Source: Candidatus Poseidoniaceae archaeon (GTDB lineage: Archaea > Thermoplasmatota > Poseidoniia > Poseidoniales > Poseidoniaceae). From it: 44,129 nt of DNA. The notes beneath the pieces were generated by a model. The model saw nothing but the letters and a program-made list of their open reading frames with translations. It searched no databases and was not told where the DNA came from. Position 1 is the first letter of the stretch; the number at the start of each line of letters is the position of its first letter. Both the position numbers and the translations under genes were made by a program. Shown piece by piece: positions 9,014-34,317 of the stretch. Location of the stretch: positions 1 through 44,129 of the forward strand of contig JAPKFC010000006.1 in NCBI GenBank assembly GCA_028821785.1, given 5' to 3'.

Positions 9014-10018
9014 TCAGTTGATTGATGTGAACATTTCATCAGGCATTTGCTGAGCCAGTGCTAAAGCACCAGTAGCAACCTTGTCAATTGGGTCTTCAAC
9101 ACACCAGACATTTACATCACCGATATCGGAGATTTCGTCAGCAATACGAGCCGCTAATCCTTCGATTAGAGAGCCGCCACCAGAGATGATGACATTGTTA
9201 CGAAGAACTGGTTGATATTCAGGGTCTGCGCCAGCAACGATTTGCTTGATACCGTTTCCGATCTTTGGAATAATTGATTCACATGCTTCTTGAACTAGGT
9301 CTCCGATGTCTACCACTTGTTTCTTACCTTCAACTGAAAGTTCAACAATTGCTTCACGAGCATCTCCGCCAACGTAGGAAACTTCTTCTTTCCAACGGCG
9401 AACCATGTCCTTGGTTACTTGAGCGCCAGTGTACTTCTTTCGGATCAGGTCCATTAGTGCCTCATCCAACCAATCTCCAGCTTCTTGAAGAGTAATTTGG
9501 TCTTCTTCGGTTGGGAATGTTCCGTAAATACGTGCAATATCAGTTGTTCCAGCGCCAATATCTACTACGATAGAACTAGCGATTTCTTCAATTCCGAATG
9601 CTGTAGCGAATGGTTCAGTAACTACCATTATGGCATTTACTTGTCCACGAAGTGTTGCAACTAGGTTGGACTTGTCAGTGAATGAAACGTGAGATGGTGA
9701 GCAAATTACTCCGAATACCTCATCGAATTCTTCAGGGTCTACTGTTTCCAATAGGTGAGAAACAAACGCCTTTGCAGCAGCAAGGTTTGCATCATCATCT
9801 TGAGCAACTCCAGCAGCCATTGGGCGGTATATATTACATGCCAACTTGTTCTTCAAAGCATCATTTCCGAAAAGAACATCTCGCCCGAGGAAGTTACGAG
9901 CAATAGGGTCTTTCGGTCGTCCAACAACAGTTTCAATTGTGTGGCTTGCACCAGCACTTGACGCGATTGTTGATTGGTATGTTCCCAAATCGATTCCTAC
10001 GTAGAGTCTTTCTCCCAT
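9014..10018 (-). CDS. MreB/MamK-like actin homologue
   Basis: A 334-residue actin-superfamily ATPase. The phosphate-1 motif is VGIDLGTYQST (residues 7-17), the phosphate-2 motif VVDIGAGTTDIA (151-162) and the adenosine motif ISGGGSLIEGL (278-288). E135 in TEPFATAFG matches the catalytic position of MreB/MamK, and that stretch looks closer to MamK than to DnaK. The length is that of a prokaryotic filament-forming actin and no membrane anchor is seen. I chose ATG 10018 because GGAAGGTGA lies 6-7 bases upstream; a longer frame from 10072 lacks such a site. The coiled-coil gene follows on the same strand. A role in shape, division or positioning is inferred from the family. Confidence 0.87.
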   Translation of the reverse strand: MGERLYVGIDLGTYQSTIASSAGASHTIETVVGRPKDPIARNFLGRDVLFGNDALKNKLACNIYRPMAAGVAQDDDANLAAAKAFVSHLLETVDPEEFDEVFGVICSPSHVSFTDKSNLVATLRGQVNAIMVVTEPFATAFGIEEIASSIVVDIGAGTTDIARIYGTFPTEEDQITLQEAGDWLDEALMDLIRKKYTGAQVTKDMVRRWKEEVSYVGGDAREAIVELSVEGKKQVVDIGDLVQEACESIIPKIGNGIKQIVAGADPEYQPVLRNNVIISGGGSLIEGLAARIADEISDIGDVNVWCVEDPIDKVATGALALAQQMPDEMFTSIN

Positions 10019-10029
10019 TTTATTCACCT

Positions 10030-10050
10030 TCCGCGTTGCGGACAGACCGC
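10030..10050 (-). promoter_or_regulatory. Two mutually exclusive mini-hairpins next to the actin ribosome-binding site
   Basis: On the minus strand the block CCGC can pair with GCGG on its left (10038-10050, 4 bp, loop of 5) or with GCGGA on its right (10030-10042, 5 bp, loop of 3). The right-hand arm directly abuts the AAGGTGA ribosome-binding site of the actin gene. Stems this short are marginal, so a translational switch is only a possibility. Confidence 0.25.
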
Positions 10051-10115
10051 CGAGGATGCCACTACCCTTCAAGGTTCACCTTCACTAAAAAGGGATGATA
10101 TCTGCATGCGTAAGC

Positions 10116-28547: not shown

Positions 28548-31400
28548 ATGAATCGCGCCCTATTGCTTAGTTTAATGTTTATAATTTCCACTTTCGCGGG
28601 GTGTATCGACAGCCCAGTGAATGGAGTTTCTGGCCAAATTGATGGTTCTAAAGTGGGTGGAACCTTCGACTGCGAGCAACCATATACAAGTACCACTTTC
28701 CAATTGGGAACTAATGATAATTGGGATCCTAATATTGCAGAGGCCCCACTTCCGAATGTTCCCGCCAATCTCATGCAAATTGTATTATATACCAAGGAAA
28801 CCGATGATAATTTTAATGAAGCGGTTGTTGCCCACCATTTCAGTAATATAGGTGGATTGACAATCATAGACGCCCAGATGACAATTCAGACTCGTGCCGT
28901 TACAGGAATGGCTCCTAATTCAGATATTCTAGAGTTGATGTTCCACGATGACATGACCCAATACCCCACTTGGAATATTCCAGTTGGACTAACTGCGGAC
29001 TCTCCATTTGGTATGACAGAGGTCCTGCACCTCGATGAGTTGCCCACTAGTGGGATGGGCGATCTATCTACATTGGTAGCCGGCACCACCGACTTAATTC
29101 CAACACTCAATAGTCTTGGATACATCGACATAGTTGTTTCTCATGGCCAGCAAGTCGATTATGTTGAACTTGAGATATGTGTTCAATCCCCACCCCCTCC
29201 TTCAGGAGGTTCCTTTGATTGCCCTGCACCGTACTCAAGTTTCAGTTTCTTTTTAGGGACAAATGATAATTGGGACCCGACCATTGCAGAATCTCCACTG
29301 CCTATACTCACCTCAAACCTTTTGCAAATTGCAACATATGCGAAGGGTACAGACGATGATTCGAATGAAGCATCAGTTGCCCATCAGTTCGGTAGTATAG
29401 CGGCATTTACAATTGTCGATGCACAATTGACAATCCAAACACGAACAATTCCAACCGAGGCTCCAAATATTGCCAATCTAATTTTATTATTTAGTGATGA
29501 CATGACGGCATATCCTCCTTGGGAGATTCCAATCGGACAAGCAGCAGATCCTCCATCAACACTGACTGAAACATTACATCTAGATGAATTACCCACAAGT
29601 GGAATGGGTGATTTGTCTTTATTGGCTGCAGGTAGTACAGATATAATTTCGATACTAAACACACTAGGTTATCTAGACATTATTGTACAAAATGACCAGG
29701 AGGTTGACTATGTTGAATTAGAGGTATGTGTCGATAAGACTTGGTCGACACCCACACTACCAATGCCGTGTGAAGATTGGGAAGATCCACTTTCACCATC
29801 ATATTTAGCAGGCGATGTTATTGAAATAATCCATGGGAGCCAGGATGGATTTTCTCTCGCTACAACAGATCCTGCCCCCCAGCCGCGCGATTCGTTAGTT
29901 GGTATTATCGACTGGCAAACGAACTCGTATGCAAGAGTCGGTCCGAACTCTCCAGTTTGGTCTAGTTGGGGTGCAAACAGCGGTCAAGCGACATTATCGA
30001 CTTTCGATGAATTATCCGCCAATAATATGCTGATGACTAGTTTTACCGGATTGCCAAACAATATCGTCGATGCCCGTATTGATTTTGGAGTTGCTTTCCT
30101 TGGAGGAGCTAATCTAGAAACAGATAGTATTCATCTAGGATTTACTCAAGAAATGGCAACACCCGGAACATACCCTTATCACAACCTCGATACTATTACA
30201 CAGGGCGATTACTGGGATGAGACTGCACCAACTGTTCTGGATTCAACATTTAATACACAGAGCCAAATACTCAGTTATCCATATACTGGAATTACTACTC
30301 AGATGAACTCGGGAGGTGGCTTGACAATATCTCTGCACCTAAGTCATTTATACACATCTGGGCATGTGTTTAACTCCCAAACATCGTTGAATTGGGGAAC
30401 TAACAGTATCATTCAAGAAATGAACGATCAAGGTTTCTTGGATTTCTTAATTCAAGATGATACCAGTGTGGATTATGTTGCACTAAAATATTGTGCAGGA
30501 GACTTTGATACTGATAACGATGGCCAAAATGATGACACTCAAGATTTAGACAACGATAATGATGGAATTTCAAATGCAGATGAAGGAGATGCAGATCCGG
30601 ACGGAGACCAAATTCCAAATCATCTAGATGATGATAGTGATGGAGACGGTATTCCAGATTCTGTTGAAGGAAATGTAGATAGTGACGGAGACGGTATTCC
30701 AGATTTCCTAGACTTAGATAGTGACGGAGACGGGATTCCAGATTCTGTTGAAGGAAATGTAGATACCGACGGAGACGGTATTCCAGATTACCTAGACTTA
30801 GATAGTGACGGTGATGGCATTCCAGATTCTGTTGAAGGAAATGTTGATACCGACGGAGACGGGATTCCAGATTACCTAGACTTAGATAGTGACGGAGATG
30901 GTATTCCAGATTCTGTAGAAGGGGTCGTTGATAGCGACGGCGATGGTATCCCAGATTATCTAGACACTTTTGATGATACTGATACTGACGGCGATGGTAT
31001 TCCAGATTCTGTTGAAGGAAATGTTGATACCGACGGAGACGGGATTCCAGATTACCTAGACTTAGATAGTGACGGAGATGGTATTCCAGATTCTGTAGAA
31101 GGGGTCGTTGATAGCGACGGCGATGGTATCCCAGATTATCTAGACACTTTTGATGATACTGATACTGACGGCGACGGTATGCCAGACGTATGGGAATCTA
31201 GTAATGGCCTAGATCCAAATGACGACACTGATGCTGGTATAGATGCTGACGGCGATGGTTTAACAAATCTAGAAGAATATGGTTACGGTACAGATCCGAA
31301 TAATGCAGATACAGATGGTGGTGGAGTCAATGATGGAGATGAAATCACCAATATGAGTGATCCAAATGACGACACTGATGACGGCGTAATCAACGGATAA
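28548..31400 (+). CDS. Large lipoprotein: triplicated unknown domain plus D-x-D-G-D-G calcium repeats
   Basis: A 950-residue protein with signal peptide and lipobox F-A-G-C (Cys 19). Two closely similar domains of about 170 residues follow (about 40-212 and 224-395). Each starts FDC..PY, contains LGTNDNWDP, and ends [13 protein letters not shown] ... VDYVELE(I/V)C. A third, diverged copy lies at about 405-650 and ends VDYVALKYC. From about 652 to 940 there are tandem '[14 protein letters not shown] / [13 protein letters not shown]' units that match thrombospondin type 3/calcium-binding repeats. No enzyme motif is seen. It is likely a lipid-anchored surface protein whose rigid calcium-dependent stalk is C-terminal. 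The gene is transcribed alone and convergent with the Lrp gene. Confidence 0.85.
30625..31190 (+). repeat. In-gene tandem repeats with a 180-base exact duplication
   Basis: This is the coding region of the D-x-D-G-D-G units. Besides short units of about 60 bases, positions 30819-30994 are identical to 30999-31174, that is 176 identical bases at an offset of 180. Since even synonymous positions agree, the duplication is recent or maintained by recombination. It adds exactly 60 residues and keeps the frame. Confidence 0.92.
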
Positions 31401-33502: not shown

Positions 33503-33510
33503 TATTATAA
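33503..33510 (+). promoter_or_regulatory. TATA box of the aquaporin-like gene
   Basis: TATTATAA lies 49-56 bases before ATG 33559. With the normal archaeal spacing, transcription would begin near 33533, leaving a leader of about 25 bases. That leader contains the strong site GAGGGGG at 33544-33550. Confidence 0.5.
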
Positions 33511-33558
33511 GTGGTTCGATTGAACTTGCAAATGCTCTCAACAGAGGGGGATAATAAT

Positions 33559-34197
33559 ATGGAAATGGATTGGAAAGGAAATATGGCTGAACTCGGAGGC
33601 GCATTTATGCTCTCTTGGGTTGTACTTGGAATGGGCGGAAGCGGAGTTGGCACACTTATTGGTGCGGCAACTCTAGCAGTCGCTTGGATGGCGTTTAGTG
33701 GCGCACACCTACTACCTGTAGTTACATGGTGCCACATGATGACTGGCGACTTGGCTGACACTGAAGGGAATTGGATGGCAAACGGTATGCGTTTGGTATT
33801 CCAAGCACTCGGAGCATTAGTGGCAGTTCTATTGATGACAGAAGCAGGATCTCTTGAGACTCCTACCTTCGTTGCACCTGAGATGTGGGTTGCAGACATG
33901 GGTAACATGATGTGGCCTGTCATCACAATGATGGCAGCAGGTGCAGTATGGTGGCAAATCCACACACGTTGCAACTCAGAATGGGTAAGCGCATTAGGAT
34001 TAATGGCTATTGCCGGAGTTGGAATACACCTAGATGGAGCAAACTGGATGGGTTCAATGCTAGCAGATGGCGGAACACAAGTAGCAGATGTTGCAGTGGA
34101 CTGGCTCTTGAACGGTCTAGTCTTCGGCCTTGGTGCATTACTCGGTGTAAAAATCGATGAAAATATACCAGGCGGCGACGACAGCAGCGCTGAGTGA
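33559..34197 (+). CDS. Aquaporin/MIP-fold membrane protein with both NPA motifs altered
   Basis: A 212-residue integral membrane protein with about six helices. Residues 10-56 follow the MIP N-terminal half closely (AE-x-x-G-x-F ... SGAHLLPVVT, where aquaporins have SGAHLNPAVT). So the first NPA is L52-P53-V54. In the second half the residues GIHLDGANWMGSML (155-168) align with G-A-S-M-N-P-A-R-S-x-G-P-A-L. NPA becomes D159-G160-A161, and the selectivity-filter arginine becomes N162. Without the paired asparagines, water or glycerol conduction cannot be assumed. The ATG is set by GAGGGGG eight bases upstream. The gene is monocistronic, with its own TATA box and a strong hairpin after it. Confidence 0.72.
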   Translation: MEMDWKGNMAELGGAFMLSWVVLGMGGSGVGTLIGAATLAVAWMAFSGAHLLPVVTWCHMMTGDLADTEGNWMANGMRLVFQALGALVAVLLMTEAGSLETPTFVAPEMWVADMGNMMWPVITMMAAGAVWWQIHTRCNSEWVSALGLMAIAGVGIHLDGANWMGSMLADGGTQVADVAVDWLLNGLVFGLGALLGVKIDENIPGGDDSSAE

Positions 34198-34246: not shown

Positions 34247-34280
34247 GTACGGGGGCATGTCTGCGGACATGTCCCCGTGC
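34247..34280 (+). terminator. Strong hairpin downstream of the aquaporin-like gene
   Basis: A 15-bp stem (34247-34261 with 34266-34280, two G-U pairs in RNA) and the tetraloop TGCG. It starts 49 bases after the stop. The T-rich run TTTCTTTTTTTCTTTT follows at about 34302-34317, so it can act as a terminator or a stable 3' end. Confidence 0.6.
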
Positions 34281-34317
34281 GCCATTTTGGTAACAAGATG
34301 GTTTCTTTTTTTCTTTT

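Follow-up and report, generated by a model that had tools for sequence, protein, structure and literature searches.

What defines the aquaporin (MIP) family is usually taken to be its machinery of an NPA pair and a filter arginine. A gene in the 44,129-nucleotide stretch analysed here (the window, a contig from a draft archaeal genome of 1.8 Mb) had been read in an initial annotation as encoding an aquaporin-fold protein devoid of both NPA asparagines and of this arginine. The locus, which we call LPV-type, thus raises the question of whether a protein so altered is still a MIP, whether the alteration is fixed in a family, and what, if anything, its pore would pass.

The open reading frame and its start were confirmed at the coordinates first assigned. 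The initiating methionine is common to all close relatives compared, and a 228-aa frame opening at a GTG codon is therefore only an upstream extension. The TATA-like element, ribosome-binding-like stretch and terminator-like hairpin noted earlier are all present (Table 1), and most relatives' genes are preceded, at a comparable position, by an A/T element resembling a TATA box. In 31 of 32 genes of family A, which includes the window gene (hairpin and ribosome-binding stretch at 33535-33552) and relatives L072-L112, a leader hairpin of the form CTCN-tetraloop-NGAG abuts or overlaps the ribosome-binding site, and its stem varies with compensating changes (CTCT/AGAG, CTCGC/GCGAG, CTCAC/GTGAG, GACC/GGTC and GCCC/GGGC). 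This hairpin would lie close to the 5' end of the mRNA.

Table 1. Features of the LPV-type locus, in window coordinates
Feature	Position	Strand	Basis or remark
TATA-box-like element TATTATAAG	33503..33511 (about)	+	sequence
Short leader hairpin CTCT-CAAC-AGAG	33535..33546	+	kept in relatives with compensating changes
Ribosome-binding-like stretch AGAGGGGGAT, just 5' of the ATG	33543..33552	+	sequence
LPV-type MIP-like membrane protein gene, 212 aa	33559..34197	+	stop codon included; ATG 33559, stop TGA 34195-34197
Predicted TM1 (residues 5-25), buried Glu11	33571..33633	+	AlphaFold2 model; alignment
Loop B / half-helix HB signature SGAHLLPVVT (residues 47-56)	33697..33726	+	sequence; L-P invariant (64/64)
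Loop E region DGANWMGSM (residues 159-167); M164-G165-S166-M167 at the NPAR place	34033..34059	+	spacing and alignment
Predicted TM6 (residues 175-202), conserved G192-A193	34081..34164	+	AlphaFold2 model; alignment
13-bp G+C-rich hairpin ACGGGGGCATGTC-TGCG-GACATGTCCCCGT, 3' of the gene	34249..34278 (about)	+	sequence
Second, terminator-like hairpin, then T run	34281..34312	+	follows the 13-bp hairpin

The window protein matched no family in Pfam or NCBIfam and did not reach the cut-off of the MIP family (PF00230); among 18 relatives, two matched the Pfam MIP model, at a best E-value of 0.0035. The assignment to MIPs therefore rests on profile comparison and fold. In hhalign, the LPV-type profile matched the canonical MIPs of the order with a probability of 97.6% (E 4e-12); taken by halves, the first half gave 96.9% (E 1.7e-10) and the second a weaker 69% (E 4.5e-5). 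A profile search of the PDB returned twelve matches, all to aquaporins (best E 0.0037). The structure check proposed earlier agreed: an AlphaFold2 model built on 41 sequences (pLDDT 83.5, pTM 0.82) has the predicted order TM1-TM2-HB-TM3-TM4-TM5-HE-TM6, which is the MIP hourglass order, and its best 50 PDB folds were all aquaporins (probability 1.00, TM-score 0.49-0.63, about 0.6, rmsd 5-6 Å). Descent of the LPV-type family from MIPs is thus well supported by profiles and predicted structure.

The first half of the protein carries the MIP signature, as had been stated: the window protein has SGAHLLPVVT where MIPs have SGAHxNPAVT, so that Leu52 stands at the first NPA asparagine and Pro53 is retained, and the loop aligns without gaps with SGAHINPAVS of canonical MIPs. 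All 64 distinct family sequences have Leu-Pro here and none has Asn; in their consensus, G-(A/S)-(H/D)-(V/I/L)-L-P-x-x-T, the L, P and T are invariant and the H is found in 63. Along with GAH-x-x-P-x-x-T, the first half retains the Q-x-x-G-A of TM3 and the TM1 glutamate, which is present in 41 of 41 family sequences and in all canonical MIPs.

Loop E required a change of register. The initial annotation had placed DGAN at the NPAR position, and this fits less well, since some four additional residues would be needed to reach TM6 from the loop. By contrast, the motif GA(N/H)xMGxx pairs gap-free with GASMNPAR of the order's canonical MIPs, making NPAR correspond to MGSM in the window protein and to MGAS in most members. 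We favour this register because the spacing from the loop-E glycine to the TM6 glycine (31-33 residues in the family) matches that of canonical MIPs (30-33), and because hhalign pairs the loop-E GA of the two groups. Across the 41-sequence alignment, the NPAR site reads M-(G/A)-(A/S/T/G)-(S/M/E/C) in 39 sequences, with Met at the second asparagine site, and IGGM in two rows from a sister clade, B. The filter-arginine site holds Ser, Met, Glu or Cys, with Glu carried by one subclade (6/41), and Arg in none. When read in the DGAN register, the loop varies (T/D/G/S/E/N-G-A/G-H/N/S/D), again with no arginine among the residues seen; it is conserved only when read as GAxxM(G/A)(A/S)(S/M/E). Of the proposed LPV/DGA pair, then, the Leu-Pro of loop B is conserved and the DGA is not. 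Neither of the two outcomes that the initial annotation had named as refuting its claim, a fold other than that of MIPs or loops lacking any conservation, holds for loop B.

The central claim of the initial annotation, loss of both NPA asparagines and of the filter arginine, withstood this correction: the whole window protein contains neither NPA nor NPxR, and Asn and Arg are absent from loop E in either register. The family has also exchanged the TM4 glutamate that every sequence of the canonical set carries, mostly for Trp. As judged from the alignments, both pore asparagines are replaced by conserved hydrophobic residues (Leu52 and Met164) and the filter arginine by Met, Ser or Glu, and the first half is conserved as a MIP while the second reads as rebuilt. 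In the model, the half-helix HE spans residues 160-169, starting within DGAN, one turn before the position given by the ungapped alignment; with this offset, a TM-score of about 0.6 and an rmsd of 5-6 Å, the modelled pore geometry is unreliable.

A single-sequence search with the window protein found relatives, in a patchy distribution, in 17 of 171 genomes of its own family, and a profile search extended this to 118 of 319 genomes of the Poseidoniales (marine group II), or about 113 when five weak or partial matches are set aside. A scan of 84,980 species yielded 42 confirmed GTDB loci, every one titled as marine-group-II-type, and the loci of the nearest public relatives bear Candidatus Poseidoniales, Poseidoniaceae or Thalassarchaeaceae titles. 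Outside the order, the profile search of an even sample of the phylum gave two weak matches, one to an ordinary NPA/NPAR MIP and the other to a MIP with NPV and NPG. The family is thus order-specific and essentially absent outside Poseidoniales. Two scans of viral contigs turned up no relative and matches to a viral fold library were all weak, one of them a giant-virus MIP fragment, on which grounds a viral origin was rejected. We found no published work in the open-access literature that joins marine group II or Poseidoniales with an aquaporin.

Close pairs of LPV-type genes gave dN/dS values of 0.08-0.24, which indicates purifying selection and, together with synteny and the spread across the order, rules out a pseudogene or a chance reading frame. 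Measured against 17 ORFs around ribosomal protein genes, the codon adaptation of the LPV-type gene (0.68) ranks second in the window; it lies above that of the genome's canonical aquaporin (0.63) and compares with 0.64-0.81 for the ribosomal-region genes themselves. This hints at good expression and is not proof of it. First in rank among the window's genes is one on the minus strand (9014-10072), whose product is MreB/actin-like (MreB_Mbl, E 5e-25; Salactin, E 6e-6).

The LPV-type gene is flanked on one side by a gene for a PLP enzyme of Cys/Met metabolism and on the other by an oppositely oriented gene for an uncharacterised 583-aa protein, an order conserved, with both neighbours, in the closest genomes. 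Across genera the surroundings differ, and the neighbourhood comparison yielded no constant operon partner; a function could not be drawn from the neighbours and this approach was dropped. One syntenic slot holds two strongly diverged family-A kinds, LPVVT (L077-L079) and LPPVT (L102, L103 and L108). Proteins of the LPPVT kind share about 40% identity with the window protein, and the pattern resembles an exchange of alleles at one locus. Elsewhere in the window, positions 28548-31400 encode a 950-aa protein with acidic TSP3-type repeats, probably secreted or on the cell surface.

Clade B shares the loop-B replacement: its members read GSEILP, GSQILP, GGTILP or GAMILP, and where canonical MIPs have NPAR they carry a hydrophobic residue, G, then Met or Ile. 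Their profile matches aquaporins; the AlphaFold2 model is of low confidence (pLDDT 65), with aquaporin matches at a TM-score of at most 0.40. Several members (among L095:5846-6454, L090:875-1489, L148, L156 and L159) follow a family-A gene directly, as a tandem pair with it. In the tree, the two LP-type clades together split from NPA-type MIPs with branch support of 100/100, and the LP change looks like a single ancient event in the order, as far as an unrooted, long-branched tree can suggest. The window's genome also carries a canonical aquaporin (G000:C84:5663-6244, L001), as do the family-A genomes of the same genus. A further MIP group, in Thalassarchaeaceae (L152, L158, L162-L181; about 80 of 148 genomes), has NPA in loop B and FNPAV in loop E, placing Val at the filter arginine. 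In one protein from another family of the same class (L144, G386:C11), loop B reads NPV and loop E reads NPG with Ile next. It may represent a stage between the NPA and LP types, and its placement in the tree is unsure.

On sequence and modelled fold, the LPV-type family is a real, conserved aquaporin variant of a known superfamily, and we consider it highly probable that the family, its MIP descent and the replacement of its pore residues hold together. The asparagine pair of MIPs caps the half-helices and faces the pore. In the LPV-type protein, Leu52 would face Met164 where this pair normally orients water, giving a hydrophobic pore centre. Since such a centre would also stand without a positive filter residue, the protein is probably not a selective water file or a normal water channel. 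Instead, small molecules that are neutral or weakly polar (dissolved gases, NH3, small volatile or organic solutes) may diffuse through it passively, beside the ordinary aquaporin of the genome. The best overall explanation, to which we give a probability of roughly 55%, is an order-specific MIP-derived protein whose rebuilt hydrophobic pore centre passes small neutral molecules or gases. The transport role taken by itself, passive passage of such molecules, is a tentative suggestion from sequence and model, and more doubtful still is a separate marine group II MIP class in which a Leu/Met hydrophobic gate replaces the NPA asparagines and admits gases and small neutral or weakly polar molecules but not water. 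Our favoured ranking from alignments and model places neutral molecules or gases first, followed by a non-conducting protein, an ion channel and an ordinary water or glycerol channel.

The closest competitor, unlikely yet deserving weight, is a MIP relative that conducts nothing, its pore plugged by Leu and Met, and whose role in the membrane would be that of an abundant structural, packing or sensory protein. Lens AQP0 has a structural role. Hydrophobic residues at both asparagine sites, a rebuilt second half that is weakly conserved as a MIP, a very acidic (net charge -16) and Met/Trp-rich composition, fairly high codon adaptation and the lack of a conserved operon partner pointing to a substrate would all suit such a protein. 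However, the strict retention of H50, L52, P53 and T56 in loop B seems beyond the needs of a scaffold.

An ion-permeable MIP is improbable. In ordinary MIPs, the two NPA asparagines and the arginine jointly form a filter that excludes cations and protons (PMC4150397), so their loss could turn the protein into a cation or anion channel, and the glutamate at the arginine site of one subclade would fit this. Against it, ions would pass poorly through a hydrophobic Leu/Met centre, a leaky cation channel would be costly for the cell, and the residue at the arginine site varies among Ser, Met and Glu. Slightly less probable again is an ordinary water or glycerol channel that works despite the substitutions. 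MIP descent and fold are compatible with it, and conduction persists in some MIPs whose motifs have changed (PMC8355241), whereas the altered motifs listed for prokaryotes usually hold at least one Asn (PMC6912568), here both asparagines and the arginine are gone, and a canonical aquaporin is already encoded in the genome. The missing Pfam match and the modest TM-score would suit a convergent six-helix protein or a formate-nitrite family member with its aquaporin-like fold. Either is very improbable, given that sequence and structure matches are all to MIPs and that loop B aligns with them ungapped.

The LPV-type family carries wider implications. In an order of abundant ocean archaea, other residues have been fixed at the NPA and arginine sites under purifying selection, with the scaffold retained, and this aquaporin clade is largely invisible to Pfam and NCBIfam searches. 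Most genomes with an LP-type gene also hold an ordinary aquaporin, and the family as a whole offers a naturally occurring test of the asparagines' function.

Compared with the MIP superfamily (PF00230; AqpM, AqpZ and GlpF grades), the LPV-type protein shares the order of transmembrane and half-helices, the TM1 Glu, SGAH-x-x-P-x-V-T, the TM3 Q-x-x-G-A, the TM6 G-A and the loop-E-to-TM6 spacing, and lacks the asparagines of both NPA boxes, the proline of the second, the filter arginine, the TM4 Glu and a PF00230 score. The genome's own canonical aquaporin, L001, and related proteins of the order have the same fold class and a significant profile-profile match, but L001 retains GAHINPAVS and GASMNPAR, and the LP-type proteins lie across the 100/100 branch. 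Formate-nitrite transporters (FocA/NirC/HSC) have an aquaporin-like fold without NPA motifs, and PMC4150397 cites a FocA structure paper titled to this effect; they are absent from the LPV-type sequence matches and the best 50 folds. Departures from NPA within the MIP fold are known from Sulfolobus (NPN/NEA) and Segniliparus (TPV/VPA) (PMC6912568), and from TbAQP2, with NSA/NPS and the filter IVLL (PMC8355241). Such proteins mostly hold Asn at one or both sites, whereas the order-wide LP-type clade has fixed Leu and Met and has no Arg; the nearest parallel is the TPV/VPA of Segniliparus, if both boxes sit in one protein.
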